From Leptospirales bacterium (GTDB taxonomy: Bacteria > Spirochaetota > Leptospiria > Leptospirales > Leptospiraceae), in the NCBI GenBank assembly GCA_013297885.1, contig JAAFIR010000028.1, positions 1-64,000 of the forward strand: 64,000 bases of DNA, written 5' to 3'. The position numbers and the translations under genes were made by a program. Shown piece after piece: positions 14,588 to 62,788 of the stretch; within the stretch, counting starts at the first letter, position 1, and each line of letters opens with the position of its first letter. The notes under the pieces are model-generated. The model was not told the origin of the DNA, ran no database searches, and saw only the letters and a list, made by a program, of their open reading frames with translations.

Positions 14588-17156
14588 AATAATAAAACAA
14601 GGTTTTTTTTAAATTTATAAAATTGGAATTTGAAACTTGAAATTCAAAACCTGTAGCAAGGAATAAATTTAAATGTTGAAGTTTAGATTTTTCTACTAAA
14701 AGATATGTTTCAAGATTAGTTGAATTAAATTCTTTTTCAGAAACTAATTTTAAACTGGAATCAAATTCTTTTAAATGATCTGCTAAATTTTTGAAAGTTA
14801 AATTAGGTAAATTTGCTAAATGAATAATTCTTTTTTTTGGACTAAATAATTTTTTTATAATCTCATCTGCAATCAAATTTACAGGACTAATATTAATTTC
14901 TAGTTTTGGATTTAGATTTGGAATTTTTTTTGTAATAAAAATTTTTTTTAAGAAATTTATAAAAAAACTATTCTGTAAAATTTTTGAGTTTAATGAATTA
15001 GTTAATAATCCAAGTCTATAAATAAAATAATTGGAATTTGATTTTTCTAAAATTTTTTCACTCAAAAATTTAGAACTTGCATACCCACCATAAATTTCAG
15101 AAATTTGAAATTCAGAAATAGATTTTTCTTTTAAATATTTTTCTTTTATATTAGTACTTAATAAAACTGATAAAGTGGAAATATGATGGATTTCAGAATT
15201 ATTTTGTTTCGCTAATTCTAATATTTCATAAATTGAATTTGAATTTTCTTTTTCAAGTTCGTAAAAGTTTTTTGATAAATTTAAGTTAGAAGCAATATTT
15301 AAAATTATATCTGGTTTTAATGATTTCCAAATAGTATTTGGAATCCCTAAATTTTTTTCTTTTAAGTTGCCTTTTATAAAACTTAAATTTGGATGAAAAT
15401 ATTTGTTATCTTGATTTAATTCTCTTTTTAAAATATAAATTTTATATTTTTCATAATCTAATTTATTAAAAATTTCCGAACCTAAAAAACCACTTGAACC
15501 TGTAATAAAAATTCTTTTGCGTAATTTGAAATTCTTAGAAAAACTAAAATTTAGTTCAGAAAAATTAATTTTAAATTCTAAATCTTTTACTAAATAAGTC
15601 TTATTTTCTTGAAACTTAAAAATTTCATTTAAAGTTGAATCCATACCAAATTCATTTAAGTTAATATTAAATTTTTGATTAGTTAAAAAAGAAATCAACT
15701 CTAAAAATTTTAATGAATCCCCACCATTTTCAAAAAAACTTTTTTTAAAATTAATTTTTTTAATTTGTAAAATTTCTTTTAAAAATTCTTCTATATTGTC
15801 TTCTTTTTTTAAAATCAATTTTTGATTTTGATTCCAATTTAGGTTTTTTTGTTTTATAAATTTATTTGGAATCATCCAAGATGGAAAATTTTCTCTTAGT
15901 TCATTAATTATTTTAAATTTATTTATTTCAGAAAAATAATATAATACTAAATATTCTCTTTTATTCAAAAATTCTTTTTCAAGTTTTACAAATTCTAAAT
16001 TTAATTTATTTAAAAGAAAATATTCAATTTCTTCTGGTGCGATTAATTTACCATTAAATTTAATTTGCCTATCTATTCTGCCTATAAATTCAAAATTCTC
16101 ACCAACTTTACTAACTTTATCACCAGTTTTAAAAAAATTTTGATTTTTTATTTTTACAAATTTAATTTTATTTAATTCAGGATTTTTATAATAACCAACA
16201 GCAAGTCCAATCCCAGAAATATAAAGTTCACCTGAGTCTGCTTCATTTCCATTTTCATCTAAAATTTTGTAATTCATATTTTGAATAGGTTTTCCAATTA
16301 AATTTTTTTCCCAATAAGAGTGCATTTTTTCAAAACTTGTACAGACAGTTGCTTCTGTTGGACCATAAACATTTATTAAATCAAATTTTTCAGAAAACTT
16401 CCTCGCTACTTCAATTTTACAAGTTTCACCTCCGAGAATCATTTTTTTTAAAGTATTAGGAAATTCAGAAATTGATTCAGTAGACAATATTGAAGGAGAA
16501 ATACAAATATGGGAAATTTTTTCATCTAGGATTATTTTTTTATAATCATTATTTGTAGGAATTACCAATTTTGCCCCACTAAGTAAACTAATACCTATTT
16601 CAGAGATCGATGCATCAAAGCCTATTGATAAATTTTCAAGTAATATTGAATCTTTATTTATTTCAAAAAAAATAATTTGTGATTCTAAAAAATTTAAAAT
16701 ACCTTTATTTGAAACTAATACGCCTTTTGGTTTGCCACTTGAACCAGATGTAAAAATGATATAAGCAAGTTGTCTTTGAATTTCTTTAATTTTTTTTTGT
16801 GAATAAAACAAACTTTTACTATGAAAAATAAAATCTTCTCTATAAAAAAAATTACTCAATTTAATTGAATTACTTAATTGATTAATGATTTCATCTAATC
16901 TATTCTCAGGAATTGAATCATCAATTGGAATAAAAATTTTTCCAACTCGAAAGCAAGCAAGAAATGCAATAATATATTCAATAGATTTTTTATAATATAG
17001 AACAACTAATCTTTCTTTTTTTAATGTCAAAAAGCTCGAAAACTTTTCAACTTCAAATTTTAATTCTCTGAAAGACAATTTGTCACTTCCAAATTGAAGA
17101 GCAATATTATTCGGAAATCTATTTTCTATTTCAACAAATTTTTTCCAGAGATTCAT
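14559..17156 (-). CDS. NRPS-like adenylation-carrier-thioester reductase (A-T-R), 865 aa
   Basis: Domain order: adenylation (about 10-455), peptidyl carrier (about 460-530, phosphopantetheine Ser481 in ENGGDSLKF) and thioester reductase (about 548-865). The A domain has the ATP loop FTSGSSGKPKGV (135-146), the substrate-binding FDAS core motif with Asp181, and the catalytic Lys region NQKLILK. The R domain has the nucleotide-binding GSSGFLG (553-559) and YASSK. This enzyme class loads an acid on its carrier and releases it reductively as an aldehyde or alcohol, as in Lys2. Asp181 suggests an alpha-amino acid substrate. It overlaps the catalase gene by 26 bases and needs a Sfp-type transferase, not seen here. 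Confidence 0.85.
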   Translation of the reverse strand: MNLWKKFVEIENRFPNNIALQFGSDKLSFRELKFEVEKFSSFLTLKKERLVVLYYKKSIEYIIAFLACFRVGKIFIPIDDSIPENRLDEIINQLSNSIKLSNFFYREDFIFHSKSLFYSQKKIKEIQRQLAYIIFTSGSSGKPKGVLVSNKGILNFLESQIIFFEINKDSILLENLSIGFDASISEIGISLLSGAKLVIPTNNDYKKIILDEKISHICISPSILSTESISEFPNTLKKMILGGETCKIEVARKFSEKFDLINVYGPTEATVCTSFEKMHSYWEKNLIGKPIQNMNYKILDENGNEADSGELYISGIGLAVGYYKNPELNKIKFVKIKNQNFFKTGDKVSKVGENFEFIGRIDRQIKFNGKLIAPEEIEYFLLNKLNLEFVKLEKEFLNKREYLVLYYFSEINKFKIINELRENFPSWMIPNKFIKQKNLNWNQNQKLILKKEDNIEEFLKEILQIKKINFKKSFFENGGDSLKFLELISFLTNQKFNINLNEFGMDSTLNEIFKFQENKTYLVKDLEFKINFSELNFSFSKNFKLRKRIFITGSSGFLGSEIFNKLDYEKYKIYILKRELNQDNKYFHPNLSFIKGNLKEKNLGIPNTIWKSLKPDIILNIASNLNLSKNFYELEKENSNSIYEILELAKQNNSEIHHISTLSVLLSTNIKEKYLKEKSISEFQISEIYGGYASSKFLSEKILEKSNSNYFIYRLGLLTNSLNSKILQNSFFINFLKKIFITKKIPNLNPKLEINISPVNLIADEIIKKLFSPKKRIIHLANLPNLTFKNLADHLKEFDSSLKLVSEKEFNSTNLETYLLVEKSKLQHLNLFLATGFEFQVSNSNFINLKKTLFYYFNLLKSEIQ

Positions 17157-31977: not shown

Positions 31978-33474
31978 TTGAAATTAAAACCAGAAACAAT
32001 AAGTAAACTAAGATATGAATATTTTTATTATTTAATACCCATTTTTATTATGAATTTTATAATTCCAATTTTTTATTTAGGAATAGATTTTTATTTAAAA
32101 AAATATTTTGATATAAATGAATTTTTGGGACAAGTATTAATTCAAACTTCCACTCATTTTATTTATCTTTTTGCAATAATTATAATTTATTATTATGCTG
32201 AAAAAAAATACTTTTCCACTCTAAACTTGAATCAATTTTGTAAAATAATCACAACAACAGTTGTAAAAATCACAGGATTTTTTCAAATTCTACAAACGAC
32301 AATAATCATTTTATTTGCTTTAGGTGAAATTGCAAAAGATAACCTTTACAAAGGAAAAATTGCAATTTATTTTATTGTTGGTGTTTCAGTTGTTTACCAA
32401 TACATTATTATCACAATGTTTTTAACTTATATGGCTACTCAAATTGTAGAAAGAAAATTTAAAACTAGAATTTTTGAAGAAACTAAAATTTTATTTAAAC
32501 ATGGAAATGAAAAAATCAAAACTGAAATTTTAGTTTCTTTTTTTGTAATTGGAATTGTTCCTTTACTGATTTTATTACTTTTTCAAATTCATGGGACAGA
32601 AGGGAATTTTTTCAAAGGAGATAGAATTTACATTATTGGAACTTTTATAGTTGTATTTACTGGAATTGCAGCTTGTTTAGTGTTTCAAAAAGAATTAATT
32701 TCTTTTCCAATTGAAACTTTAGTGTCAGCAATGGATCAAGTGGAACAAGGAAATTTTAAAGTTCGTGTGCCAATTTCCAAATCAAATGAATTAAGTTTGC
32801 TTTCTAGTAAATTTAATGATATGCTTGATGGACTTGAAGAAAAAGAAAAAATAAAAGATGAATTTGGAAAGTATTTATCACCAGAAGTAGCAAAAGAAAT
32901 TTTAAATTCAAAAAAAAATATTTGGGAAGGTGAAGAAAAAGAAATTACGATTTTGTTTACTGATATTGAAGGGTTTACTACACTATCAGAAAAATTAGAA
33001 GCCAAAGAAATTGTAAAACTTTTAAATGAATATTTTACTGAGCTTGTAAATATCATCAAAAAAAATTCTGGGGTGGTAAATAAATTTATCGGGGACTCAA
33101 TACTTGCAATTTATAATGCTCCTTTAAATGATATCAATCACGCTGAGAATGCTTTTCAAACTGCTTTAGAAATTTCTAAATTAAATGAAAATAAAAAATT
33201 TTCAAGTGACTTAATAATTAAAACTAGAATTGGAATTAACACAGGAAAAGTAATTATCGGAAATCTTGGCTCCAAAGAAAGATTGGAATATACTGTAATT
33301 GGGGACGCAGTTAATGTTGCACAAAGACTTGAATCTATGAACAAAGAGCTTAGTACTACAATTTTAATTTCAGAGAGCACAAAAAATTTGATTCAAGAAA
33401 AAATTCAGTTTCAGATTGAAAAAGAAATTTTTGTAAAAGGTCGAAAAGAATCAATTCATGTATTTGGTATTTGA
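31978..33474 (+). CDS. membrane adenylate/guanylate cyclase with HAMP domain, 498 aa
   Basis: About six transmembrane helices in residues 15-240, a HAMP-like linker (about 250-290), and a class III cyclase domain at about 310-498. Metal Asp residues are in ILFTDIEGFT and FIGDSILA, the substrate Lys in VNKFIGD, and EYTVIGDAVNVAQRLE is intact. It makes cAMP or cGMP on the cytosolic side in response to a membrane or lipid cue. The TTG start at 31978 is preceded by AAAGGAAAG. It is unrelated in its membrane part to the 7TM cyclase at 7.5-9.6 kb. Confidence 0.88.
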   Translation: MKLKPETISKLRYEYFYYLIPIFIMNFIIPIFYLGIDFYLKKYFDINEFLGQVLIQTSTHFIYLFAIIIIYYYAEKKYFSTLNLNQFCKIITTTVVKITGFFQILQTTIIILFALGEIAKDNLYKGKIAIYFIVGVSVVYQYIIITMFLTYMATQIVERKFKTRIFEETKILFKHGNEKIKTEILVSFFVIGIVPLLILLLFQIHGTEGNFFKGDRIYIIGTFIVVFTGIAACLVFQKELISFPIETLVSAMDQVEQGNFKVRVPISKSNELSLLSSKFNDMLDGLEEKEKIKDEFGKYLSPEVAKEILNSKKNIWEGEEKEITILFTDIEGFTTLSEKLEAKEIVKLLNEYFTELVNIIKKNSGVVNKFIGDSILAIYNAPLNDINHAENAFQTALEISKLNENKKFSSDLIIKTRIGINTGKVIIGNLGSKERLEYTVIGDAVNVAQRLESMNKELSTTILISESTKNLIQEKIQFQIEKEIFVKGRKESIHVFGI

Positions 33475-37546: not shown

Positions 37547-40500
37547 TTACCGCAGTTTATAAGTGCAATTTTTATTACCACCACATTGAGCATAGATAGT
37601 GTTTCCCCCTATTAAAAACATTTCTTGAAGTGTAGTACCACCAAAAGGTGATGTAAGAGAATTTTCTTTAATCATGGACTCCCATTTCCAAGTGGTGCCA
37701 GTCCTTCTATATATATAGATAGCACCATGCATTCCGGAAGTATCAGGTGGTACAGGAACTGAATTATAAATCCCACCACCTGTTCTATCATTCCAAGAAA
37801 GGACTGCAAGAACATCTCCAGAGATACTCACACCAGCACCAAAACCACCACTAGCTAATAAATGAAATGCCTTGATATGAGCTTCTCTTATATAAGCAGA
37901 GCCATTCCAACGATAAACATCAACTCCACCATAAGTGGGAGCAGCAAAAGTACCTGATATAACTCCTCTAGAAGTTCCATTGTTCACTCCTGTCCAAGTG
38001 CTGGTATCTAGTTCACTCCCAATTACAAGCGTATCTCCATCCATGTCAATACTAGGATTACAGCTATAACCTGGTCCACCGTATGCGGATAAAGTAGACT
38101 GCTGACTCCAAGTGGTCCCTGTCCTATGATAAACTGATACGTAACAACCATTTGATTTTGGTACAAACAATCTATCACCAAAAAGTCTTATTGGTCTTTC
38201 GGAAATAAGCATAGAATTTTCTTTAATAAATGCTTCTTGTTCCCAAACGGCACCGTTTTTTCGATAGATGTAAATTGCTCCCCAAGGGGCATATTGATTC
38301 TTGGTAGGAGGTGTTCCTGTTCCATTGATAATTCCACTAAAACTTTCTGACCCTTCTCTTTCTGCAAAAACTGCTATTGTATCACCAGATACAGAAACAT
38401 GCGCTCCAAATCTTTCACCAACAGCAGAATTACTTGCTGTAATTGTAGCTTCCAATTGCCAAACAGTTCCACTTAATCTATATACAGTAGCTTGTCCTGT
38501 ATTAGTATTCTCACATTCTTTACCTGTAACTAAAACATTTCCTGAGATTGCAGCTTTAAAAGATTCATTCGAACAACCAACAGGTGTCTGAGAAAAAGTT
38601 AAATTTGTTCCTGTGCTACTGTCTTGACTTCCGACACCTGGAGGAGTATTCATATCACCTGTAGTGCCACGGATATGTCTGTTTCCTGAAAAAAATACAC
38701 TAGTGAACATTCCATATATTGGACCTGATATGGAATCCCTGTACCATTCATGAGCCACTTGAATCGATAGTGTCGCAGTATTTGAACCAGAAGCGTTAGA
38801 CGCTGTAATGGTATAACTAACAGGGTCTTGTAAGGTTGTGGCTGATCCCGATATGGCGCAGGTTGTGTTGTTTATCGTTAGCCCCGCAGGAAGTGCAGGA
38901 CTAGATGTACAAGACGTGGGTGAGCCTGTCATAGTCGGTGTCTCTGTCTTAGGTCCATTTTTGTAGAACATAAATGGACTTCCCACATAACTCAAACCAT
39001 TTGGTGGTGCAGGTCCGATAGCAATTTGAATGGTTGCTTGCGTACTACCAGATCCATTACTTGCAGTGATTGTGTAACTGATAGAGCCTTGTTGTGAGCT
39101 TGGACTTCCACTAATTGTACAAGTCGTCGCACTGATACTGAGACCTGCTGGTAGCCCTGGACTCGAAGTGCAGTTTGTCAAAGGCGAACCAGAATAACTC
39201 GGTGTTCCAGAGGAAGCGGCAGTGGATTGGAAAAAACTGTATGGAGTTCCCACATAAGTGAGAGCAGAGGGAGCCATCGCTGAAACTGTGATACTAATTA
39301 CAACATTTGTGCTTCCAAATGGATTTGTAGCTGTGATCGTATAGTTATTTGCACCTTGCTGAACAGTTGGGGTTCCTGCAATTGCACAAGTTGTATTATT
39401 AATCGCAAGTCCTGCAGGAAGTGCCGGAGCGGAAGTGCATGTTGTTGCATTTCCTGTGAGACTTGGTGTTGCCACTGTCATTGGTGAATTATGAGTTAAT
39501 ACAAATGGTGTTCCAGAATAAACTAAGTTGGCTGGGGGAATCGCAACTATCGTTATATTGATATTTGCCGAAGTGCTTCCAGATAAATTACTTCCTGTTA
39601 TCGCATAAGCAGTATTACCCTGAGTTGCTGTTGCTGTTCCTGTAATTTCACAATTGGATTGAAGTGTTAATCCGGCTGGAAGTGTTGGTGAAGAAACACA
39701 ACTTGTCAGAACAGATGTATGTGTTGGTTTAATCACTCCCACACTTACTAAAGTTGTAAACGTAAATGGTGTTCCCGCATAAGCCAAATTAGTCGGAACG
39801 GGTGGTTTGTTTTCTACACTAAATGTCATACTAAATTGTGATACACCTGCATAATTTGTTAAAGTCACAATCGCAGGTGAAGGATCTTGTAAATTTGTTG
39901 GTGTTCCTGAAATTACACCCGTGAACATATTGATACTCATTCCATCAGGAAGACCAATTGCTGAAAAAGTATTCGGAGCAGTTCCTGTAAATGTCGGTGT
40001 AAAACTAAAATCAAATCCTTTGCCTAACGGATAATTTGTAGAACCATAACTAAGTGTTGGTGGTGCATAAATTGTTCTATCAGAAATAACTTGGAAGCTT
40101 ACTGAAAAAATTGCAAACCCAGATGGATTGGAAGCTCGAACTATGTATGTAGTTGGTGCTTGCAAATTAGTTGGGTATCCAGAAAAGACTCCGGTCTCTC
40201 TGTCAAATTGAATTCCTTGTGGCAAAGGTCTATCGATCGAATAACGGACATTAGTCCCTTTCGCTGTGCTTGGTGCAATTGTAAATTTCTTTCCTGTTAG
40301 AAGTGTATATCCAGATGCTCCAAACAAAAGTGTTGGTGAAGGAATCACAACTGGCAGGTTTGCTGAAATCAGAAGTTCTGTTTGGACTTGTTTGTAGCCA
40401 TCATTTGCTTCTACAATAATTGTTGAAGCAGGTGACTGAACAATAGGTTTTCCAAAAATAACGCCATGTGAACGAGAAAAGTTTAACCCCGCAGGAAGTT

Positions 40501-42973
40501 TTCCAGATTTGATTGTATAATAAGTTGCCTTACCAAACTCCAAGCTAGGATAGTGAAATGGAGCATCTACCCGAACTGTATAATCATAAGCTTTAGAGGC
40601 ATAGCTTAGTCCTCGTAATTCTTTGTATGGGTTCATCTTAAATACATCCCCACTCAGAATATGAAATCTTTCTCCGATACCGTTTATAGGAATTCTTTCA
40701 CAAACAACTCTTGTGCTTTTCATTGTATATGGCACATTAAACTTAACCCCAGTAACTCTTCCTTCTGGGTTGTAAACAAAACTAGTATTTAAAACTGGAA
40801 TCTTATCCATACTCAAATTAAGCGTGAAGTTTGCTGGATTGATTGGAACTCTAAATCTTACAGTCATTTCAGTTCCAACAGTTCCTTCTTGAGGTTCAAT
40901 GTCCATATAGTTTGGAGAAGGCAAAGTATAACTCCTATTATCCCCTTTGGAACTTTTAATAGTAAATGAATTATCTTCTTGAACGGGCTTCTCCGATGCA
41001 AAATCCGTAAACATATACGCTATGTCATTTGCATACAAAGCCTTCTTCAAACCATATCCATCAAATGAATCCAAATTTGCCTTTATCCCACCATAGTCAG
41101 AAACGCTCGGTGGAGTTTTTGGGTATTTTGGATAAGTTTGGTATGATTTTGTTTTTCCACACATTTGGTTGTGTAAACTTTTGAATCTTGATTCCACTAA
41201 AAATTTTGCAGATTGAGTTGGTGCGAGTGCAAGTTGTAGATTGTAACTGTCCATTTGCAGGCTATAGTTAAAACATTTGTAGTCTTCTCTGTAAGATGCT
41301 AAATCCATATCGAAGTTTTGAAATCCACGACCAATTACATTTAGCTCTACTTTGTTTGGATCTATTGTCCAACGGGCTACATCTATTTGAAATGTGTTGA
41401 TGTAACTAATCAATTCTTCTAAACTACTCATCTGTCCCATTTTGGTTGGTGCAAATGTTTTCATTAGTGCCTCTAAATCTTTACTTTCATCTCTTGCATC
41501 TGCTGCATTTGAATTTACAAATAACATAAAAGTAGAATCTTTAGATACTGCAAGAAATGGAGGTGGAGCTCCCATCACAATTTGAATTTCATACGGAACT
41601 TCAAATGCTGAATAAGTATCGATTAACATTGCATCTACTGTATGTTTTTCTCTTCCTGGTTTTTGTTTAAATCTAACTCCCATTCCTTTCGCGTAAGACC
41701 TTCCATCTATCATTAAACTTTTTGCATTGTTCTTAGTTTCTACTTCAATTGAAATATCCATTGTATCAAATAATGTTCCCCAAGGAACCATTACTTTTAT
41801 TTGTCCGGGAGTAATAGTGTAAGTTCCATCCACGTCATCAAAATATCCTGCGGCTTCACTTTCCACCATCGATACTGGTTTACCAAGTCCAATTGTATTT
41901 ACTTTTGTGATTTGAGGTATGTCTACAAGATCAAGTGTTCCTTTTGTTGTTGTATTTTTACCAGCATAAGATCTTGCTCCTGCACGAAGAACTTCATGAC
42001 TTGCTTTTACTACATAATTTTGTGTACAACCATTTGAACCTTGCACTGTAAATGTTACATTACTTCCATTAAAATTTTGTGTGCTAATTCCAGAAGTTTG
42101 TGTAGTTCCACCAACTCGCATTGTAGTTCCATATATACTAAAACTAGTTTTTAATGCTGACAAATTTGCATCTGGGGGTAGACTTGCTTCATACCAAGTA
42201 TTAGTTGTATCATTTTTTTGTTTTACTGCTGCCATTGGATAATCTGTAAAATAAATTCCAGCAAGCTCACAAGTATATTGAATTCTATTTACCATGACTG
42301 TGTATTCTTTTGTTGTGCCGTCTTTTGCTTTTACTGTAAATACTTGCGGATTAGAGAAGTTAAGCGATGTTCCAGTAGTGATTATTCTTGTGCCAAGTAA
42401 AACAGATCCACCATCATGAGTGAACACAGCTTGTAAATTGGTTACATCTTGGAATGGAACATCAAAATTAATTGTATCTCCGTAAAATACTCCGGTGATA
42501 TCTCCTGCTGCTGGCTCTCTATCAGTTTTTAATGCAAATGATAAAAATGATTTTGTATCTTTTTCATTTCCTGTTCGAGGTTTAACTGTTATAGTTCCCG
42601 AATAACCTCCGTTGGAATCATAAATCTCTACTGCTTTGGCATTTCCATTAAAATTAATTTTTAAATTTTCTTCACCAGCTTTATCGCCACTTCCACCAAC
42701 TGGTGGAACATTGGAATCAGGAGCTGGTTTTGCTGCATCATTTTTTACTTCATCTATTGATTTTGTTGAGGCATTTCCAATACTTAAAGGATTGCCATCT
42801 GGACCTGTGAGAGTTAAACCAAGTGTAATATTCTGATTACTAGAAATAGAATTTGAATTAGAACGAAAAAATGCCAGAATTGACTGCCATTTATTATCTG
42901 ACTTTTTATTCATGATTCCATTGCAAGAAAAAATATTTAAAATTATAAGAATGAATATTACCAAATTTTTCAT
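37547..42973 (-). CDS. giant Ig-like repeat lipoprotein with FG-GAP-like C-terminus, 1808 aa
   Basis: The start at 42973 gives the lipoprotein signal MKNLVIFILIILNIFSC (the ATG 36 bases upstream adds only a poor leader). After a Ser/Asn-rich linker come cadherin-like beta-sandwich units (TFTVKAKDGTTKEYTVMVNR), a large unassigned region, then from about residue 850 a tandem array of seven or more putative Ig (He_PIG) repeats with the unit LPAGLxxxxxTCxIxGTPT and YSGTPFxF. The C-terminal 330 residues are FG-GAP-like (GERFGAHVSVSGDTIAVFAE). It is a probable surface adhesin. Codon use and base composition are richer in G+C than neighbours. Confidence 0.85.
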   Translation of the reverse strand: MKNLVIFILIILNIFSCNGIMNKKSDNKWQSILAFFRSNSNSISSNQNITLGLTLTGPDGNPLSIGNASTKSIDEVKNDAAKPAPDSNVPPVGGSGDKAGEENLKINFNGNAKAVEIYDSNGGYSGTITVKPRTGNEKDTKSFLSFALKTDREPAAGDITGVFYGDTINFDVPFQDVTNLQAVFTHDGGSVLLGTRIITTGTSLNFSNPQVFTVKAKDGTTKEYTVMVNRIQYTCELAGIYFTDYPMAAVKQKNDTTNTWYEASLPPDANLSALKTSFSIYGTTMRVGGTTQTSGISTQNFNGSNVTFTVQGSNGCTQNYVVKASHEVLRAGARSYAGKNTTTKGTLDLVDIPQITKVNTIGLGKPVSMVESEAAGYFDDVDGTYTITPGQIKVMVPWGTLFDTMDISIEVETKNNAKSLMIDGRSYAKGMGVRFKQKPGREKHTVDAMLIDTYSAFEVPYEIQIVMGAPPPFLAVSKDSTFMLFVNSNAADARDESKDLEALMKTFAPTKMGQMSSLEELISYINTFQIDVARWTIDPNKVELNVIGRGFQNFDMDLASYREDYKCFNYSLQMDSYNLQLALAPTQSAKFLVESRFKSLHNQMCGKTKSYQTYPKYPKTPPSVSDYGGIKANLDSFDGYGLKKALYANDIAYMFTDFASEKPVQEDNSFTIKSSKGDNRSYTLPSPNYMDIEPQEGTVGTEMTVRFRVPINPANFTLNLSMDKIPVLNTSFVYNPEGRVTGVKFNVPYTMKSTRVVCERIPINGIGERFHILSGDVFKMNPYKELRGLSYASKAYDYTVRVDAPFHYPSLEFGKATYYTIKSGKLPAGLNFSRSHGVIFGKPIVQSPASTIIVEANDGYKQVQTELLISANLPVVIPSPTLLFGASGYTLLTGKKFTIAPSTAKGTNVRYSIDRPLPQGIQFDRETGVFSGYPTNLQAPTTYIVRASNPSGFAIFSVSFQVISDRTIYAPPTLSYGSTNYPLGKGFDFSFTPTFTGTAPNTFSAIGLPDGMSINMFTGVISGTPTNLQDPSPAIVTLTNYAGVSQFSMTFSVENKPPVPTNLAYAGTPFTFTTLVSVGVIKPTHTSVLTSCVSSPTLPAGLTLQSNCEITGTATATQGNTAYAITGSNLSGSTSANINITIVAIPPANLVYSGTPFVLTHNSPMTVATPSLTGNATTCTSAPALPAGLAINNTTCAIAGTPTVQQGANNYTITATNPFGSTNVVISITVSAMAPSALTYVGTPYSFFQSTAASSGTPSYSGSPLTNCTSSPGLPAGLSISATTCTISGSPSSQQGSISYTITASNGSGSTQATIQIAIGPAPPNGLSYVGSPFMFYKNGPKTETPTMTGSPTSCTSSPALPAGLTINNTTCAISGSATTLQDPVSYTITASNASGSNTATLSIQVAHEWYRDSISGPIYGMFTSVFFSGNRHIRGTTGDMNTPPGVGSQDSSTGTNLTFSQTPVGCSNESFKAAISGNVLVTGKECENTNTGQATVYRLSGTVWQLEATITASNSAVGERFGAHVSVSGDTIAVFAEREGSESFSGIINGTGTPPTKNQYAPWGAIYIYRKNGAVWEQEAFIKENSMLISERPIRLFGDRLFVPKSNGCYVSVYHRTGTTWSQQSTLSAYGGPGYSCNPSIDMDGDTLVIGSELDTSTWTGVNNGTSRGVISGTFAAPTYGGVDVYRWNGSAYIREAHIKAFHLLASGGFGAGVSISGDVLAVLSWNDRTGGGIYNSVPVPPDTSGMHGAIYIYRRTGTTWKWESMIKENSLTSPFGGTTLQEMFLIGGNTIYAQCGGNKNCTYKLR

Positions 42974-43124
42974 TTTTATCTCCTTCTTATTCAATATACC
43001 GTTTAACAATGCTTAAATGGTAAATCAATTTTGCTAATTTAAATTGAGTTTATATTTTTTCATACGAAATTTTATTTCATTATCTGCAACAGGAAATTTT
43101 TAATATTCTAAAAAAGTTGTTCAT

Positions 43125-54516: not shown

Positions 54517-55089
54517 TTAAGTTGAATAAATAAATTTGTATAAACTTACAAAAAACAATCCCAAAAAAATCACTCCTAAAATTTGATTTAGTTTTTTTAA
54601 TAAAATATTTTTAACTATTTTTTGAACCAAAACAGCAAATAAAAAAATAGAAGTAAATGTTCCAAAACTAATTCCCAAACAAAAAAAAATTATAGGTTCT
54701 AATTTGATTTGCCAATTTTGAATTTGATTTGAAACTAAAACCCAAAAAGGAATGACTTGTGGATTTAAAATTGATAAAAAAAATCCTGATAATACAGAAG
54801 TCTTGATGTTTTTTTCAACTTGTTTTTCTTTACTCGTAAAATTCAAAATAGCTAAAATCAAAAATACAAAAATAGAAATAAAATCTAAAATTTTAAATTC
54901 GGAAATTTTCGATTGTAGAATTATAGCTAAATAAGAATAAAAAAATTCTACAATGGAAGCAATGAGGCAAAATAGTATTAAATGGAGAATATTTTTTTCT
55001 TTATAAATTTTTAAAGCTGTTAGGTTCAAACTCCCAAGTGGAATTGAACCTAAAAAACTAATTAAAAAACTAATAAAAAATAATTTCAG
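54517..55089 (-). CDS. LysE-family exporter, apparent CTG start, 190 aa
   Basis: From a CTG at 55089-55087 the frame reads KLFFISFLISFLGSIPLGSL after the initiator, then NLTALKIY, which restores the conserved first helix and P-x-G motif of LysE/RhtB transporters. The first standard start (TTG at 55029) would delete that helix. Five or six transmembrane helices follow, with SGFFLSILNPQVIPFWV as the family signature. The CTGA overlap with the sbtA stop parallels the ATGA overlaps elsewhere. It probably exports a small amphipathic compound, and is last in the complex I-like operon. Confidence 0.65.
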   Translation of the reverse strand: MKLFFISFLISFLGSIPLGSLNLTALKIYKEKNILHLILFCLIASIVEFFYSYLAIILQSKISEFKILDFISIFVFLILAILNFTSKEKQVEKNIKTSVLSGFFLSILNPQVIPFWVLVSNQIQNWQIKLEPIIFFCLGISFGTFTSIFLFAVLVQKIVKNILLKKLNQILGVIFLGLFFVSLYKFIYST

Positions 55090-56066
55090 AGAAATTGTTT
55101 AATTAAATAAAAATAAAGCGGTATTCCAACAATGATGTTAAACGGAAATGTAATACCTAGTGCAAGTGGTAGATACAAACTTGGATTTGCATTTGGAATA
55201 GCCATTCTAACTGCTGCTGGAACTGCGATATAAGAAGCAGAAGCACATAAAACTGTAAACATAAGTGCATCACCAACTTTTATTCCAATTGTTTTTGCAA
55301 TTAAAATTCCAATTGAGGCATTTAATAAAGGCATCAAAATTCCAAACGCCAATAAAAATAATCCACTCTTTTTTAAATCACCTAATTTTTTTGCAGCATT
55401 TAAACCCATATCTAATAAGAAAAAAGTTAAAAATCCTTTGAACATATCATCCGCAAAAGCTTTTTCTGCTTTCCATCCACTTTCACCTGTTAATGCACCA
55501 ATAATTAATGCACCAACAAGTAAAAAAATTGAACCGCTAAAAAATGCTTCATGAAGAAGTTCTTTCCAAGAAAATTTTTCTTTCTCACCAGAAGCATTTG
55601 TAGTTCTTCCATAAATTCTATCAATCATGACACCAATTACAATTGCAGGAGATTCCATTAATGCCATCCCAGCTACAATAAATCCACTATATTCAAAGTT
55701 TACAGTGTGTAAAAAAGCACCAGCAGTTACAAATGTTACAGCTGAAACAGAACCAAACGAAGCGGCAATTGCTGCAGCGTTGTGAACATCTAATTTTAAT
55801 TTTAAAATATAAAATGAATAAATTGGAACAATGATAGCCATTAAAATACAAGCAGATAATAATAATAAATGTTCTGGATTGATTCCATCTTTTACTAGTT
55901 CCACCCCACCCTTAAATCCAATTGCGAATAAAAGATACATTGAAAAAAATTTAGATAATGCCTCAGGGATTTCTAAATTTGATTTTACAAGAACCGCAGC
56001 GACACCTAAAAAGAAAAATAATACAGGTGGATTTAAAAAATTTTTTAATATGATAGAAATATCCAT
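55086..56066 (-). CDS. sbtA: SbtA-type sodium-dependent bicarbonate transporter, 326 aa
   Basis: About ten transmembrane helices and the family motifs of the DUF897/SbtA superfamily: ALSKFFSMYLLFAIGFKGGV, VHNAAAIAASFGSVSAVTFV, GMALMESPAIVIGVMIDRIY and ASYIAVPAAVRMAIPNANPS. In cyanobacteria SbtA takes up bicarbonate with sodium. No SbtB (PII-like) regulator gene is adjacent. It starts 35 bases after the ferredoxin-NuoB fusion gene of the complex I-like operon, in the same orientation. Substrate is inferred from the family and could be another anion. Confidence 0.82.
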   Translation of the reverse strand: MDISIILKNFLNPPVLFFFLGVAAVLVKSNLEIPEALSKFFSMYLLFAIGFKGGVELVKDGINPEHLLLLSACILMAIIVPIYSFYILKLKLDVHNAAAIAASFGSVSAVTFVTAGAFLHTVNFEYSGFIVAGMALMESPAIVIGVMIDRIYGRTTNASGEKEKFSWKELLHEAFFSGSIFLLVGALIIGALTGESGWKAEKAFADDMFKGFLTFFLLDMGLNAAKKLGDLKKSGLFLLAFGILMPLLNASIGILIAKTIGIKVGDALMFTVLCASASYIAVPAAVRMAIPNANPSLYLPLALGITFPFNIIVGIPLYFYLIKQFL

Positions 56067-56101
56067 TCTAATCTCCTAATTTAATTGTTTTCAAATTTAA
56101 T

Positions 56102-56908
56102 TTAGCTTTTTTTTAAGAATTCTTTTAACGATTTTTGAAATGAAAACTTGTAAACTCCCATCAAATACCTATATGCTTGAAGTATAACATCTGGTCTAGG
56201 TGGGTCACCAGCAATAAATAAATCGGGGTCTTTTGGAGTTTTTCCTTTTTCAAATACACCACCCATTATCGCCTCAGTTCCACATGCAATTAATGCTTTT
56301 GGCTCAGGCATACAATCCCAAGCTATCTCAAGAGGTTTTTGCATATTTTCAGAAACTGGTCCAGAAAATAAAATTGCATCAGCATGTTTTGGGGAGGCTA
56401 CTGAACGAACTTGTAAGCCTTCAGAATCAAACACATTATTAAAACTTGCATTAAGTTCGCACTCAACTGACACATTTCCACCAGCCGCTACTTCCCTATA
56501 ATTAAACCCTTTGTTTTTTGTGAGTTTTTGAAATTTTAAAACATTTTCTGGAATTTCAAAATTTTCTGGTTCAAAATTCCCTTTTCTGTATTTGATTTTT
56601 AATTCCTCTTTTTTAAAACTAAAAGTATAATTAAAATGTGAGTTTTCTAATTTGTCAGAAGGACAAGCATTTACACAAATTCCACATTGTAAACAAGCTC
56701 CATAATCAATATCCATTTCATTTTCAGAGTGAATATAAATTGCATTTGTTGGACAGTGTTCTTCACAACTTCTACAATTTTTACAACCAAGACTTGCCAT
56801 CGATTTAGTGGGAATTGGAATTCCTCGTGCATTTTTTTGAATAGGTGAAAGAGTATCAAAATCAAAAGTTTTATGTTTTTTAAATAAATTTTTTAGTTCT
56901 TCAATCAT
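56102..56908 (-). CDS. fusion of 2[4Fe-4S] ferredoxin and degenerate NuoB-like small subunit, 268 aa
   Basis: Residues 38-85 form a NuoI/HycF-like ferredoxin with two complete CxxCxxCxxxC sets (C42, 45, 48, 52 and C72, 75, 78, 82). Residues 140-252 are the NuoB/HycG-like small subunit, recognised by MPEPKALIACG and GDPPRPD. The four Cys that hold the proximal [4Fe-4S] cluster in group 4 hydrogenases are mostly gone: the first of the CxxC pair is missing (only C150 remains), GTCA is GTEA (210-213) and GCPPRP is GDPPRP (234-239). New Cys occur at 199 and 209. Its ATG overlaps the large-subunit stop. Confidence 0.85.
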   Translation of the reverse strand: MIEELKNLFKKHKTFDFDTLSPIQKNARGIPIPTKSMASLGCKNCRSCEEHCPTNAIYIHSENEMDIDYGACLQCGICVNACPSDKLENSHFNYTFSFKKEELKIKYRKGNFEPENFEIPENVLKFQKLTKNKGFNYREVAAGGNVSVECELNASFNNVFDSEGLQVRSVASPKHADAILFSGPVSENMQKPLEIAWDCMPEPKALIACGTEAIMGGVFEKGKTPKDPDLFIAGDPPRPDVILQAYRYLMGVYKFSFQKSLKEFLKKS

Positions 56909-58350
56909 TATAGATCAAACCCCGCATAACTCAAATTAAACGATTTATTGTTTAAAGGAAAATCACCAATTAACTCACCTTTTACAGCTAACTCAAGTGC
57001 ATGCCAATTTAAAACTGAAGGATCTCGAATATATGCATTTTGAATTTGACCTTTTTGATTTATTTCTAATGCAACTAAAATTGGACCACGCCAACTTTCA
57101 ATTGCTTTATAATAAAACCCTGACTTAAATTTAATTTGAGATAAAATACTTAATTTATTTTTTTTCAAATTAACCAAACTGAGTTCAGGTAAAATTTTTT
57201 CTAACCATTGAATTGAATTTTTGACTTCTAAAAATCTTAAATAAAATCTAGACCAAGCATCACCTTTTAAATTTTCTCTGTCCAATTCCAAATTCATTCC
57301 TGTCTCTAAGTATAATTTTTCTGATAAACGTAAATCCATTTTCATACCACTAGCACGGGCAATTAGACCAACAAAAGAATTTTGTAAAATAATTGATTTG
57401 GAAACAATTCCACAGTCATCTAGTCTTTCTCGGATTGAAGAAGATTTTTCAGCTCTTATAAATTCTTTTTCTAATCTTCTAAACATAGATTTTAAATTTG
57501 CAGATAAACTCATTAAACTAGAAATATCTAATCCTTGGGAAAGTCTCACTTCACCAGGTAATATTGATGCTTTTCCAAATCTAGAACCCGTTAGAGTTTC
57601 CATCAAACCAAGTGGAACACCCCTATCAGTTGCACAAAGCCCGTGTAATGGATAATATCCAATATCTCCGGCAATTGCCCCAATATCCCCAATATGAATT
57701 GCAACTCTCTCAATTTCTAATAATACCATTCTAATTATTTTAATTTCATCAGGAATTTCCATTTGACAAACATCTTCGTAAATATTTGCAAACGCAGTTT
57801 GGTATGCAATAGTTGAATCGGAAGCAATTGATTCTACTATCGCCATTACTTGAAGAGGGGATTTCCCTTTTAGTTGTTGGATAATATTTCTATGTTGAAA
57901 TCCGAGTCTTATTGTCAAATGATCAATGTATTCTCCAGTTACAGAAAAACGAAAATGTCCTGGTTCAATTATTCCTGCATGAATAGGTCCCACAGCATGA
58001 GAATAAGAATTTTCTTTAACAGGAACTTTTAAACCATTATAAAATAAATTTCGAATCGAACTATTTCCTATTAAAGAATGTTTTAACTCAACTCTTCTTC
58101 TTTCAAAAATATCTTCAATTGAATGAATATCAATATCTGAATAATCTTCTTCTGAGCCATTTATACCAAATGAATGTCTTAATAACCAAATTGGAATTTG
58201 AATATCTTTAACTAAATCTTTAAATCGAATATCTTTTAATATTTCTAATCGAATAGAATCTGAATCTCCAATAAACTTGTAGAAATTTTCAGTTTTAAAT
58301 TCTTTATGTATACCAATAACAATTTCAAATGAGTCAAAAATATTATACAT
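56908..58350 (-). CDS. group 4 hydrogenase-like large subunit (HyfG/NuoCD-like) without Ni-Fe ligands, 480 aa
   Basis: An N-terminal NuoC-like part and a C-terminal NuoD/HycE-like part, recognised by GPIHAGIIEPGHFRFSVTGE (121-140), IRLGFQHRNI and HIGDIGAIAGDIGYY. Where hydrogenases have ERVCGICGFAH this has ESIASDSTIAY (173-183), and where they have SLDPCxSCTDR at the C-terminus it ends SFNLSYAGFDL (470-480). All four Ni-binding Cys are thus replaced (Ala176, Ser179, Ser474, Gly477). It cannot bind the Ni-Fe cofactor. It should instead act as a structural or quinone-type module. It overlaps the neighbouring gene by 8 bases. Confidence 0.87.
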   Translation of the reverse strand: MYNIFDSFEIVIGIHKEFKTENFYKFIGDSDSIRLEILKDIRFKDLVKDIQIPIWLLRHSFGINGSEEDYSDIDIHSIEDIFERRRVELKHSLIGNSSIRNLFYNGLKVPVKENSYSHAVGPIHAGIIEPGHFRFSVTGEYIDHLTIRLGFQHRNIIQQLKGKSPLQVMAIVESIASDSTIAYQTAFANIYEDVCQMEIPDEIKIIRMVLLEIERVAIHIGDIGAIAGDIGYYPLHGLCATDRGVPLGLMETLTGSRFGKASILPGEVRLSQGLDISSLMSLSANLKSMFRRLEKEFIRAEKSSSIRERLDDCGIVSKSIILQNSFVGLIARASGMKMDLRLSEKLYLETGMNLELDRENLKGDAWSRFYLRFLEVKNSIQWLEKILPELSLVNLKKNKLSILSQIKFKSGFYYKAIESWRGPILVALEINQKGQIQNAYIRDPSVLNWHALELAVKGELIGDFPLNNKSFNLSYAGFDL

Positions 58351-59563
58351 GAAAATATCCTAATTCATTAAAATAATAAATTCCATAAATTCCAAGTAGA
58401 ATATTAATTAATAATAATAAAAATGAAAAAAATAATCTTATCTTTAAAATTTTTTCTACTTCAGGTTGTAATTTTCGATTTGGTAAATTTAGAATTGGAA
58501 GAATTTTTTTAAATACAATTAAAAAGAAAATTAGTGTAAGCATTGGAATTAAAATTATCCAATAATTTCCGAGTGCATAACTTAATTTTAAAAATAACAT
58601 ATCAGTAATAAAAAACGGTGAAAATGGAATAATTGAGGCAAGTCCCAATGCAATGATATAAACCCAAGCAGTGAGTTTATTTATTCCTGTTTCTATATTT
58701 AAACTACTTAGATCTCTTGTTCCCGAATCAATTCTTAAAACCCCCATACTTGAAAATAATAAAGATTTTATTGTGATATTCGAAGCAAGAGCATAATAAA
58801 AAATTTTATCTTCAGGATTAAATGTCATCAATATTGCAAGTCCAGCTGAATGAAGTAATGCTATTTGTGCAGTTATTCTTCTAAGATCAAAAGTTTGGTA
58901 AACTGTCCAAATAGAATAGAGTAAAGTTATCACACCTAAAACAAATAATGCACTAACTGAACTAAAATGTGCTGTTGTATATGCTTGATCCATTTTAATC
59001 AAAGGTCTGATTGCAATACAAATAGTGGGTGGAAAAAAACTTGCAATGATAGAAGATATTTGACTTGGACTTTCAGAATAAGTATCAGATACCCAAAAAT
59101 GATTTGGAAATAGTCCAAGTTTTGCTGAATAACCAAAAAGCATTAACCAAAGTCCAGTTTCAACAAGTGAATTTTGGTGTGATGAAATTTGTGAAAGTAT
59201 TTCGTTTGAGTCTGTTGTAATTTGAGAATGAATTCCAAAACTTAAAATTACTAAACCTAAAAAACTAAGTCCAAGACCATAAGAATTTAATAATAAATAT
59301 TTCCATGCAACTTCAATTGCTTTTTGTGTGTTACTCATTGAAATTAAAATCGAACCAATTAAAGTTGTGCTTTCAATTAAAACCCATTGTAGTGCCAGAT
59401 CTTTTACATACCAAGATGAAATTAATATTAAAAATAAAACTACAATTAATATTGACCAATAAGAAATTTTTTCCGAACTTTTTGTAAATGCAAATAATAA
59501 AGTGAACAACAAAATTATAAAAACTAGAATTGAAATTATCAATAAGGAATTTAGATGAATCAA
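58343..59563 (-). CDS. HyfF/NuoN-like proton-translocating subunit, 406 aa
   Basis: About eleven or twelve transmembrane helices of the Mrp-antiporter/NuoL-M-N superfamily. The TM5-type Glu is present in VLIESTTLIG (Glu64) and the TM7-type Lys in FGYSAKLGLFPNHFW (Lys148), followed by SESPSQISSI, as in HyfF. These residues carry the ion path in complex I. It is shorter than typical NuoN (about 480), similar to HyfF-like forms. Member of the six-subunit complex I-like module and overlapped on both sides (8 and 4 bases). Confidence 0.85.
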   Translation of the reverse strand: MIHLNSLLIISILVFIILLFTLLFAFTKSSEKISYWSILIVVLFLILISSWYVKDLALQWVLIESTTLIGSILISMSNTQKAIEVAWKYLLLNSYGLGLSFLGLVILSFGIHSQITTDSNEILSQISSHQNSLVETGLWLMLFGYSAKLGLFPNHFWVSDTYSESPSQISSIIASFFPPTICIAIRPLIKMDQAYTTAHFSSVSALFVLGVITLLYSIWTVYQTFDLRRITAQIALLHSAGLAILMTFNPEDKIFYYALASNITIKSLLFSSMGVLRIDSGTRDLSSLNIETGINKLTAWVYIIALGLASIIPFSPFFITDMLFLKLSYALGNYWIILIPMLTLIFFLIVFKKILPILNLPNRKLQPEVEKILKIRLFFSFLLLLINILLGIYGIYYFNELGYFHV

Positions 59564-60186
59564 AATTTCCTCCTTGCAAATTCTTTTATAGAGTCACCTC
59601 TAAGTTGAAGTGCAGTAGAAGCAACTATAATTAATAAAGCATCGATAAAAGCACCAAATTCTATTCCAAAAGGTAATCCACTTTTTAAAACCAAAGTTAA
59701 TAAAAAAACTCCATTTTCAAACATAACAAATCCGGAAATTAAAACTATCCAATGAACCCTAACTACAAATGTTATTAGTCCAAGATAAATTAATAAAAAA
59801 ATATAAATAACTTCTATCTTGTTAATTGATTCAGGAAGTTCACCTAAATTTTTTACTACTAAATTGGATAAAATTAAACCAAGAATAAAAAAGAAAAATG
59901 TTGCTAAATAACCAAATCTAGGCATTGTATGTACTGAAAGTTTTATTTTTCTGACTGACCATTTCAAAATCAATGGAGGTAAAATTGTTTTAAAAACTAA
60001 AATCATAAATACTAAAATAAATGAATGTAATGAAAAAAAATCATGAACTTGAAAAACTGGAAAGATTAATAAAAATCCTTGAACAGCAAGCAAAATTAAA
60101 ATTCTTTCCAAACGATTTTCAATTAAAATAACAATTCCTGATAACAACAAAAGTAAATAAACTAAATCATAAAAATTAATTTTCAT
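59560..60186 (-). CDS. HyfE/NuoK-like membrane subunit, 208 aa
   Basis: Six or seven transmembrane helices. The middle resembles HyfE (LILVFMILVFKTILPPLILK) and the later part NuoK (FVMFENGVFLLTLVLKSGLP, then FGIEFGAFIDALLIIVASTA), including the Glu residues in FENG and GIEFG that lie in the proton channel. It should link the hydrophilic arm region to the pump subunits. ATGA-type overlaps with both neighbours mark one operon. Confidence 0.85.
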   Translation of the reverse strand: MKINFYDLVYLLLLLSGIVILIENRLERILILLAVQGFLLIFPVFQVHDFFSLHSFILVFMILVFKTILPPLILKWSVRKIKLSVHTMPRFGYLATFFFFILGLILSNLVVKNLGELPESINKIEVIYIFLLIYLGLITFVVRVHWIVLISGFVMFENGVFLLTLVLKSGLPFGIEFGAFIDALLIIVASTALQLRGDSIKEFARRKF

Positions 60187-61052
60187 ATTAATTTAACCAA
60201 AGAACCTAGTGCCAAAATAAACAATAAGGTCATTCCTAATAATTCAGGAACCCATACCCATTTTCTTCTAACTGAAACAGATTCCCAAATTCCTAAAAAA
60301 ATTGAAATTAAAATTGCAAATAAAATTGTTAATAAATTTTCTAATAATTTTGGTAAAACTGAATTTGCAAATTTGGAGTGTTCTAATCCAATTCTTGTAA
60401 CTAGAACAAATAGTGTGGCAATTCTTAATTGGTAACCAAGTTCAATAAAAAATAAACTTCTACCAGAAGCCTCTAGAAGCATAGCTTCATGAACCATTGT
60501 TAATTCTAAATGTGTTCTTGGATCATCAAAAGGTGGTCTCGCTAACTCAGCTAAAATCGCAACTAATAACGCTCCCAAAAATAATCCTCCTAATGCTAAA
60601 CCGATCCAATGAAATTGAATTTGTAAACTAGACCCAGAAACTAAAATAGCAATTAAAATAATTGGCTCAGAAGAAATTGAAAGTAAAATTTCTCTAGCTG
60701 AACCAAGTCCACCAAATGAAGTACTGGTTTCCATTCCAAAACCAATTGTGAAAACCCTTTGGATTAATCCAAAAAATGGAATAAATAAAAATGGCAACCA
60801 TTCATAAATCGAAACTGACCACATAAAAATTCCTGAAATAAAAATCAATAAAGGTGAAACTTCAGCAAAAATTCCTGAATTTTCACCATCTACTGGTTTT
60901 TTTTGAGCTAACCGAATCAAGTCATATAGATTCTGAAATAAAGGAGGACCTTTTCTTCCTTGTGCTTTAGCTCTGATTTTTTTTATGAGTCCAATTGCTA
61001 AAAATGGAAATATGAAAAAAAATATAGTTAGTATAATTAAATTAGCAAACAT
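60183..61052 (-). CDS. HyfC/HycD/NuoH-like membrane subunit, 289 aa
   Basis: About eight transmembrane helices with clear NuoH/HycD signatures: GRKGPPLFQNLYDLIRLAQK near the N-terminus, GGLGSAREILLSISSEPIIL, and ARPPFDDPRTHLELTMVHEA. In complex I this subunit forms the quinone or coupling channel under the NuoB/NuoD module. It resembles HycD more than NuoH (no long C-terminal extension). Its conservation contrasts with the degenerate metal sites in the two hydrophilic subunits. Overlaps by 4 bases downstream and 1 base upstream. Confidence 0.88.
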   Translation of the reverse strand: MFANLIILTIFFFIFPFLAIGLIKKIRAKAQGRKGPPLFQNLYDLIRLAQKKPVDGENSGIFAEVSPLLIFISGIFMWSVSIYEWLPFLFIPFFGLIQRVFTIGFGMETSTSFGGLGSAREILLSISSEPIILIAILVSGSSLQIQFHWIGLALGGLFLGALLVAILAELARPPFDDPRTHLELTMVHEAMLLEASGRSLFFIELGYQLRIATLFVLVTRIGLEHSKFANSVLPKLLENLLTILFAILISIFLGIWESVSVRRKWVWVPELLGMTLLFILALGSLVKLI

Positions 61053-62788
61053 TAGAAATAAACCTTTAAAGAGACAATAATAGCTAAACTCAAAATAAAA
61101 GATAATACCGAAAATAAAATATAATAAGAAATTTCACCAGATTCAACTTTATTGATCCAATATTTTCCGAGATTTAAAATAGAATAAGAAAATTTTTTTA
61201 CAAATGAATCCAAATAGGGCTCACCATCTTTTGCAATAAAATATCTTCCAACAGAAGAATACAATGGTTCAGAAAAAATACTTCCTGGAATAGAAAGTTC
61301 ATTTCCTCTATATTCATTTCCACAATCCCAAGTTTTTTGTTTTGAAATTTTATGTCTGAGTTTAAAAAAATAAATCAAAATATAAATTATTGAAAACAAA
61401 AGCGAGATTAATGTTAATTTTGTAAACCAGATTTGTAAATAAAGTGGAAAAGTTTTATATTCAATGTAAAAACTTTGATAAATAGAAATGTCTTTTAGAA
61501 AATTTATATTAAATTGATTATTTAATATAATCACAAAAAAGAATATATTAGGAAAAATTAATATAAAAAATGCTAATGACTTAATTGAAAATTTATAAAG
61601 ATATGAAATTGAGAAAGTATGATTTATGCTAGGAGTTGATAAAAATAAACTAAAATAAACTTTTAAATGTGTACTCATACCAAGAATCATTCCTAAGATT
61701 ATAAAAATAATCCCTAACAAAAAAAATAAACTATCTATTAATTTCATATCAATAATTTTTGAAATTAAAAACAAAACAGTTGATTCTGATAAAAAACCAA
61801 GAGTTCCTGGTAAACTAGCAAAACTAAATGTTCCAATTCCTAAAATCAATTTTGAAATTGGGATTAATTTTCCCACACCTTTTAATTTGTCAATATCAGT
61901 TGTTTTAGCAATTTCTGCAAGTTTTCCAAAAACAAAAAACTGGAATGACTTTGAAAAAGAATGTGTAAAAATTAGTAAATAAACTAAAACTAAAAATGAT
62001 TTGCTAATGTTTTGAATTTCTGTTTCAGATGAAATTTTCCAAATGGAATGTGAGAATAAAAAAAACCAAATTAAGTTAGAAAATTCAATACTTGAATAGG
62101 AAAATGCTTTTTGAATATCTTTTGAAAAAAATGCGGAAATACCGCCTAGAAAAACACCAACACCAGCTAATATTAAAAGATAATTTGAATTTGGAATTTG
62201 TGAAAACCAATTATTTGCATATCTCAAAAAAAGTAAAAAAGATAAATTTAATGACAACCCAGAAAAAGCTGCAGATAAATGAGAACTTGCTCCAATATAA
62301 CTTTCAGGATACCAAATATGTAAAAAAGAAAAGCCTGATTTAATTAATAATGCTATAATAAAAAAAGTATAACTAAAATTTGATTCTGGCAAAAAAACCC
62401 AAATACTTAAAAATAACATAGATAAGCTACTTCCTAGAAAATAAGCAAGCAAACTATTGATTTTATTCATTTTTAACTCTTCATTACTATATATTGAAAA
62501 TATTCCTAACGAAGTTATTTCCCAAAAAAAAATTAACCAAATTGACTTCCCTGAAATATAACTTCCTGTAATTCCAATAAAAAAAATTGTATAAGATAGG
62601 AAATTTTTTATTTTGTTTTTTCTATTTATAGAATAGATAAATAAGTATAAAATTGTTCCAAGAATGGCATTAATTAATAATCCAATAAAAATTGGAAAAT
62701 CGATCCCTAAATAATCACGACCAATTTCTCTCCCAGAAAATAATGGAATATATAATAAAACTAAATTTAAAATAAATATAAAATTCAT
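61052..62788 (-). CDS. HyfB/NuoL-like proton-translocating subunit, 578 aa
   Basis: First gene of the operon. About fourteen transmembrane helices of the NuoL family, with the TM5 Glu in FFWEITSLGIF (Glu90) and the TM7 Lys in LLIKSGFSFLHIWYPES (Lys150). The following Lys-rich turn reads SGLSLNLSFL (Asn181), so one conserved channel Lys may be replaced. The C-terminal QKTWDCGNEYRGNELSIPGS is the TWDCG signature of HycC/HyfB, placing it in the hydrogenase-like branch. It has a short lateral helix region and is slightly shorter than E. coli HyfB. Confidence 0.87.
   Translation of the reverse strand: MNFIFILNLVLLYIPLFSGREIGRDYLGIDFPIFIGLLINAILGTILYLFIYSINRKNKIKNFLSYTIFFIGITGSYISGKSIWLIFFWEITSLGIFSIYSNEELKMNKINSLLAYFLGSSLSMLFLSIWVFLPESNFSYTFFIIALLIKSGFSFLHIWYPESYIGASSHLSAAFSGLSLNLSFLLFLRYANNWFSQIPNSNYLLILAGVGVFLGGISAFFSKDIQKAFSYSSIEFSNLIWFFLFSHSIWKISSETEIQNISKSFLVLVYLLIFTHSFSKSFQFFVFGKLAEIAKTTDIDKLKGVGKLIPISKLILGIGTFSFASLPGTLGFLSESTVLFLISKIIDMKLIDSLFFLLGIIFIILGMILGMSTHLKVYFSLFLSTPSINHTFSISYLYKFSIKSLAFFILIFPNIFFFVIILNNQFNINFLKDISIYQSFYIEYKTFPLYLQIWFTKLTLISLLFSIIYILIYFFKLRHKISKQKTWDCGNEYRGNELSIPGSIFSEPLYSSVGRYFIAKDGEPYLDSFVKKFSYSILNLGKYWINKVESGEISYYILFSVLSFILSLAIIVSLKVYF

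Follow-up and report, generated by a model that had tools for sequence, protein, structure and literature searches.

The window analysed here, a stretch of 64,000 nucleotides from a Leptospirales bacterium contig (genome G000), carries eight open reading frames (ORFs) on its minus strand between 62788 and 54517. They encode HyfB, HyfC, HyfE, HyfF, HyfG, HyfI, SbtA and LysE, that is, an Ehr-type relative of complex I and the energy-converting hydrogenases next to a bicarbonate-type transporter (Table 1). All eight stand at the coordinates of the original prediction, which had been made from the letters of this DNA, and Pfam and NCBIfam profiles agreed with its names. The description of all eight genes as tightly overlapping holds for the six Hyf genes, each of which overlaps the next by a few bases. 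In contrast, sbtA begins 35 bp past hyfI, and the LysE ORF with an ATG, GTG or TTG start (54517-55029) follows SbtA after a gap of 56 bp; the LysE frame that includes the homologous N-terminus reaches a CTG at 55089 and overlaps the SbtA stop. No partner oxidoreductase gene was found within the operon. A promoter scan gave a result at shuffle level and was not used.

In the large subunit, the four Ni-binding Cys of Escherichia coli HycE/HyfG align to A176, S179, S474 and G477, exactly the positions predicted earlier. The proposal of an Ehr-like module lacking the Ni site is also supported, as the subunit set is kept and the four Ni-binding Cys are absent. A PF00374 profile search of the window's genome yielded no match, and the complex lacks the two CxxC motifs by which group 4 [NiFe] hydrogenases bind Ni-Fe. 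About 90 Ehr sequences display a comparable replacement pattern, and Ehr complexes have been described as devoid of CxxC motifs and of unknown function (PMC10284858; PMC6349859). Features of HyfG kept throughout Ehr are the motif GPIHAG[IV]IEPGHFRF, D178 within the old CxxC loop, the pocket residue R421 and the C-terminal NKSFNLSY.G.DL. The predicted HyfG model had E. coli HycE (7z0s_E, E value 2.4e-19) as its best fold match, while identity to other Ehr sequences is just 33-41%.

The small subunit revealed a second loss that had not been part of the earlier prediction. The proximal [4Fe-4S] cluster of this subunit is the equivalent of the N2 cluster of complex I, and in complex I geometry electrons need it to pass from the ferredoxin clusters to where the active site used to be. 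In HyfI all four ligands of this cluster, located in the HycG motifs CxxC, GxC and GCPP, are replaced (N145, V148, E212 and D235). The same places are occupied by N, V or G, E and D in all seven family members with a readable HyfI. Thus, none of the four ligand Cys is present in any member, whereas most Ehr complexes outside a Bacteroidota-type clade have all four. The carboxylates E212 and D235 recur throughout the family. C150, C199 and C209 of HyfI were considered as replacement cysteines and rejected, because neither these nor any further Cys in the NuoB domain is shared across the family. The ferredoxin domain of HyfI keeps its eight Cys (C42, 45, 48, 52 and C72, 75, 78, 82), which are intact in the family. 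HycG (7z0s_G, E value 7.7e-8) was the best fold match of the predicted HyfI model, with HycF (7z0s_F) lower in the list. As an internal control, the ordinary NuoB of the same genomes retains CC, GAC and GCPPRP, and the window's genome has a separate nuo operon on another contig (G000:C67). A redox complex I therefore already exists in these genomes. Since the proximal cluster of HyfI has no ligands, the electron wire to the old active site of the complex appears to be cut.

By sequence, the ion-path residues of the membrane arm are intact. Across the family, HyfB retains the Glu of transmembrane helix (TM) 5, the Lys of TM7, the HS.SK motif and the Glu of TM12, and HyfF retains its key Glu, two Lys and Asp. 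In HyfC, the PPFDDPRTHLELTMVHEAM.LEASG loop and the acidic loops do not vary within the family, and HyfE retains its ENG motif. At 406 amino acids (aa), the HyfF ORF is short next to the roughly 470 aa of other Ehr complexes, a feature common to the whole family.

The complex was found in all eight genomes examined from the family, an uncultured group related to Leptospira; they represent five genera. The named metagenome-assembled genomes (MAGs) are uncultured Leptospiraceae (UBA2033, 336R, RE-18aug17 and MS012). Genomes from another family of this order gave matches at the level of NuoD only, or none, and viral contigs scanned with HyfG gave no match. In 7/7 genomes with a readable neighbour, covering four genera, the gene after hyfI encodes a transporter in the same direction; genome G181 is outside this count, its contig stopping within hyfG. 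SulP alone follows hyfI in G095, G176, G004 and G029, SulP and then SbtA in G075, and SbtA and then SulP in G217. In the window SbtA stands alone, and its genome lacks any SulP. The conserved synteny is thus stronger than had been proposed, a transporter always being there, but the position is not specific for SbtA and SulP is the usual partner. An adjacency by chance in one genome, set beforehand as a refutation, is not what was found, because the slot is filled family-wide. The adjacency persists across four genera at 41-64% HyfG identity.

LysE and STAS neighbours are not conserved across the family. LysE, which also follows in G176 and G217 and in no other family member, is probably accessory. 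The STAS-domain protein of the window, encoded divergently from hyfB, is 93% identical to a protein at the same place in G095 (L031:11831-12172) and far more conserved than the complex. In G217 (contig C427, locus L033) two convergent copies of the complex flank SbtA, SulP and LysE genes. The second HyfG of this genome, at L033, is 57% identical to that of the window; contamination of the bin is about 7%.

The closest solved structure of the window's SbtA is SbtA Slr1512 (7cye, E value 7e-25), and the SbtA after hyfI in G217 is 81% identical to the SbtA of the window. For the SulP proteins of the family the closest structure is BicA (6ki1, E value 3e-33). The SulP proteins of G095, G217, G075, G004 and G029 are 43-72% identical to each other, whereas the G176 protein reaches only 36-41% identity with these five and belongs to a different subgroup. 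Differing SulP types and SbtA at one place indicate that non-orthologous transporters have replaced one another in this slot. Judged from these gene orders, SbtA has taken the place of SulP in the window's genome. The genus also has a second SbtA, with 43-45% identity to the operon type, and its gene overlaps that of a beta-carbonic anhydrase with a signal-peptide-like N-terminus. This pair is a candidate CO2-capture operon of a heterotroph. A LysR-like regulator adjoins it in the window's genome. Furthermore, in three genomes SulP and beta-carbonic anhydrase domains are joined in single open frames of 720-745 aa. The pairs of carbonic anhydrase with SbtA and with SulP support a bicarbonate theme. 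PF10070 was absent from the window's genome, and no CupA or DabA homologue was found in the operon. A DabA homologue was seen in one family genome only, G029 (G029:C35:3899-6319), away from the complex.

Table 1. Genes of the locus (window positions), other genes of the window, and related loci in other contigs and genomes
Feature	Position	Strand	Profile or remark
HyfB-like antiporter-type subunit, 578 aa	61052..62788	-	PF00361 (Proton_antipo_M), E 3e-22
HyfC/NuoH-like membrane anchor, 289 aa	60183..61052	-	PF00146 (NADHdh), E 4e-18
HyfE-like membrane subunit, 208 aa	59560..60186	-	NF008556 hydrogenase-4 membrane subunit, E 3e-9
HyfF-like antiporter-type subunit, N-terminally short, 406 aa	58343..59563	-	PF00361, E 4e-12
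HyfG-like large subunit without Ni ligands, 480 aa	56908..58350	-	PF00346 (Complex1_49kDa), E 7e-23
HyfI-like small subunit, 268 aa: 2x[4Fe-4S] ferredoxin domain fused to NuoB/HycG domain	56102..56908	-	Oxidored_q6 and two 4Fe-4S motifs
SbtA-type Na+/bicarbonate transporter, 326 aa	55086..56066	-	PF05982 (Sbt_1), E 4e-121
LysE-type exporter	54517..55089 (from CTG)	-	PF01810, E 1.7e-8
STAS-domain protein, 113 aa	63387-63728	+	
Protein of 1820 aa, probably a large surface protein	37547-43009	-	Repeated putative Ig domains (He_PIG) and FG-GAP repeat
Membrane-sensor class III nucleotide cyclase	7533-9605	-	7TMR-DISM plus cyclase
Membrane-sensor class III nucleotide cyclase	31978-33474	+	HAMP plus cyclase
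Protein of 865 aa, like carboxylic acid or fatty acyl reductase	14559-17156	-	AMP-binding plus NAD_binding_4
Second SbtA and beta-carbonic anhydrase	L150:5369-7083 (G000:C19); L151:4042-5693; L152:1790-3441		
SulP and beta-carbonic anhydrase domains in a single open frame	G176:C168:24184-26310; G095:C126:12460-14586; G075:C33:13293-15431		
Planctomycetaceae MAG, SulP directly upstream of hyfB	L100:1926-5542		38 bp gap; close relative without SulP
Deltaproteobacteria MAG, SulP overlaps helix-turn-helix gene preceding hyfB	L129:447-2833		

Outside the family, an adjacent SulP was found in only two of 140 Ehr-type loci. In both, SulP lies upstream of hyfB on the same strand and the proximal cluster is kept. 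With 7/7 in the family against 2/140 outside, the strict link to a transporter is a family trait. A general linkage of Ehr and SulP was considered and rejected, since surveying the Planctomycetota and the phylum to which the deltaproteobacterial locus belongs gave only those two loci with SulP in the operon. In the tree of the large subunit, the family forms one clade (branch value 100, starred); its branch is long and lies outside the main Ehr clade, which has 75 rows (99, starred), and HycE/HyfG sit in a third group.

A second clade without proximal ligands comprises 26 sequences (one clade; 100, starred), mostly from Bacteroidota including Alistipes; the window's phylum contributes two genomes and the Alphaproteobacteria one MAG. 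Its loci are L039, L042, L077, L079-L081, L084, L103, L107, L108, L116, L117, L120-L127, L133 and others, and many of them are from Alistipes of animal guts. Of the ferredoxin motifs in these sequences, the first is lost too, as is part of the second, so that, with most ferredoxin Cys gone as well as the proximal ligands, the complexes of this clade may be nearly free of redox cofactors. Clustering of their neighbours gave no conserved partner gene. On the tree, losing the cluster in both clades takes two changes, which fall on starred branches, but the approximately unbiased (AU) test does not reject a single clade (p 0.29). Therefore, an independent double loss of the proximal cluster is not claimed.

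The Ehr complexes of Nitrospira, Margulisbacteria and Geobacter have the same set and order of subunits, HyfB-C-E-F-G-I, replaced Ni ligands and the shared HyfG motifs. The Leptospiraceae complex differs from them in also lacking the proximal cluster, in its shortened HyfF and in the transporter fixed in the operon. On sequence grounds we class it as an Ehr variant without the proximal cluster that most Ehr members have. Hydrogenases 3 and 4 of E. coli (the formate hydrogenlyase systems Hyc/Hyf) are homologous in fold and subunits, HyfG corresponding to HycE and HyfI to HycG/HycF. In contrast to them, the complex has neither Ni site, proximal cluster, formate dehydrogenase nor maturation genes, and its ferredoxin and NuoB domains are fused. 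From respiratory complex I it is set apart by the lost N2 ligands and by an operon without NuoE/F/G. Mrp Na+/H+ antiporters resemble it in their antiporter-type subunits, whose ion-path Lys/Glu are kept here. They can exchange H+ for Na+ without redox chemistry, whereas the complex here still has its HyfC anchor and an entire peripheral arm of hydrogenase type. NDH-1 MS and DAB (DabAB/MpsAB) likewise have proton channel subunits of the complex I type, there serving inorganic carbon uptake; they differ from the operon by their CupA or DabA. As to cyanobacterial SbtA/BicA, the operon SbtA is homologous to Slr1512 and the family SulP matches BicA best. No SbtB was seen in the operon, however, the organisms are not phototrophs, and the cation-site residues of BicA are missing from SulP.

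The likeliest reading, which we put forward tentatively, is a redox-silent relative of complex I and the energy-converting hydrogenases that would work as an ion translocator for bicarbonate uptake. Without a redox reaction, HyfB and HyfF would run as a secondary, Mrp-like H+/Na+ exchanger. The proton-motive force of the ordinary complex I could then drive Na+ expulsion and pH balance through HyfB/HyfF, while SbtA and SulP would import HCO3-, SbtA together with Na+. The old redox arm, HyfG/HyfI with the two remaining ferredoxin clusters, might act as a gate or sensor, possibly reading the redox state or an anion in the old active-site pocket. Cyanobacterial SbtA and BicA rely on Na+ exporters including Mrp (PMC13249358). 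Several points weigh against this reading. The subunits MrpE, MrpF and MrpG are absent from the operon, and SbtA does not adjoin the complex in four family genomes with a readable hyfI neighbour. Residues of the Na+/HCO3- site of BicA are Thr69, Asp258, Thr262 and Gly300-Thr302 (PMC13249358); in the alignment, the family SulP has E for D258, E for A301, V for T302 and A for T69, with only the position of Thr262 kept. That the family SulP carries HCO3- is therefore something we infer. In addition, the kept ferredoxin clusters and the Ehr pocket signature suggest that some redox or ligand chemistry remains.

The original prediction was a ferredoxin- or quinone-linked redox pump. In such a pump electrons would enter the ferredoxin clusters and reach a substrate at the old site by an unusual route, and the pumped ions would drive bicarbonate uptake. 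Two intact 4Fe-4S motifs in HyfI, the conserved D178, R421 and C-terminal motif, and the intact membrane arm are consistent with it. What disfavours it is the apparent cut in the electron wire: the N2-equivalent cluster has no ligands in any family member, no conserved Cys substitutes for them, and, going by complex I geometry, the distance that is left between the other clusters and the pocket exceeds what normal electron transfer can span. As the operon also lacks a gene for a partner oxidoreductase, we consider this pump unlikely. Also unlikely is that complex and transporters share only a regulatory occasion (e.g. alkaline, low-CO2 or saline conditions), the complex having its own Ehr function and the transporters not being mechanistically coupled. 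The 138 of 140 Ehr-type loci that stand without SulP elsewhere, the varying identity of the transporter and the unconserved LysE and STAS neighbours would fit such an arrangement, but the adjacency in the family has outlasted swaps to unrelated transporters, and SulP stands independently upstream of hyfB in the Planctomycetaceae and Deltaproteobacteria MAGs.

The synteny with bicarbonate transporters would also suit a third complex-I-derived carbon machine in the manner of NDH-1 MS and DAB, in which ions passing through HyfB/HyfF would power the one-way hydration of CO2, or the handling of HCO3-, within the emptied HyfG/HyfI arm, with SbtA/SulP as companions. The new carboxylates E212 and D235 at the lost-cluster positions could be placed in such a scheme. 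Cyanobacteria deploy NDH-1 MS alongside SbtA and BicA (PMC13249358), and DabB2 resembles NuoL, its partner hydrating CO2 under proton-motive force (PMC13144422). However, no zinc site or carbonic-anhydrase-like domain is recognisable, the pocket signature is common to Ehr complexes without a transporter link, and SbtA/SulP would become redundant, all of which makes this machine distinctly improbable. A bolder form, in which redox chemistry is wholly lost and the emptied arm would couple HyfB/HyfF ion flow directly to CO2 hydration or to HCO3- import by SbtA/SulP, arising independently of NDH-1 MS and DAB as the third such derivation, is improbable too. To our knowledge, the Sbt_1 family has been little tested beyond cyanobacteria. 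With this and the differing Na+/HCO3- site of SulP in mind, SulP and SbtA might carry another anion (e.g. sulphate), for which the complex provides pH or ion balance. We regard this as very unlikely, since HCO3- is the known substrate of both families (PMC13249358) and SbtA and SulP occur paired or fused with carbonic anhydrase in the same genus.

In the open-access literature, which is incomplete, we found no paper describing an energy-converting hydrogenase or Ehr complex joined with SulP or a bicarbonate transporter. The way in which complex I links redox energy to ion pumping remains a matter of debate. A natural complex that keeps the whole pumping arm with its coupling loops, but in which electrons have no way to reach the coupling site, would set pumping apart from redox chemistry. 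For one branch of Ehr at least, the fixed partner of bicarbonate-transporter type gives an initial clue to function. Taken as a whole, the complex suggests that a redox pump was re-used for inorganic-carbon uptake, and its partnership with the transporters suggests a route by which a heterotroph may concentrate inorganic carbon.

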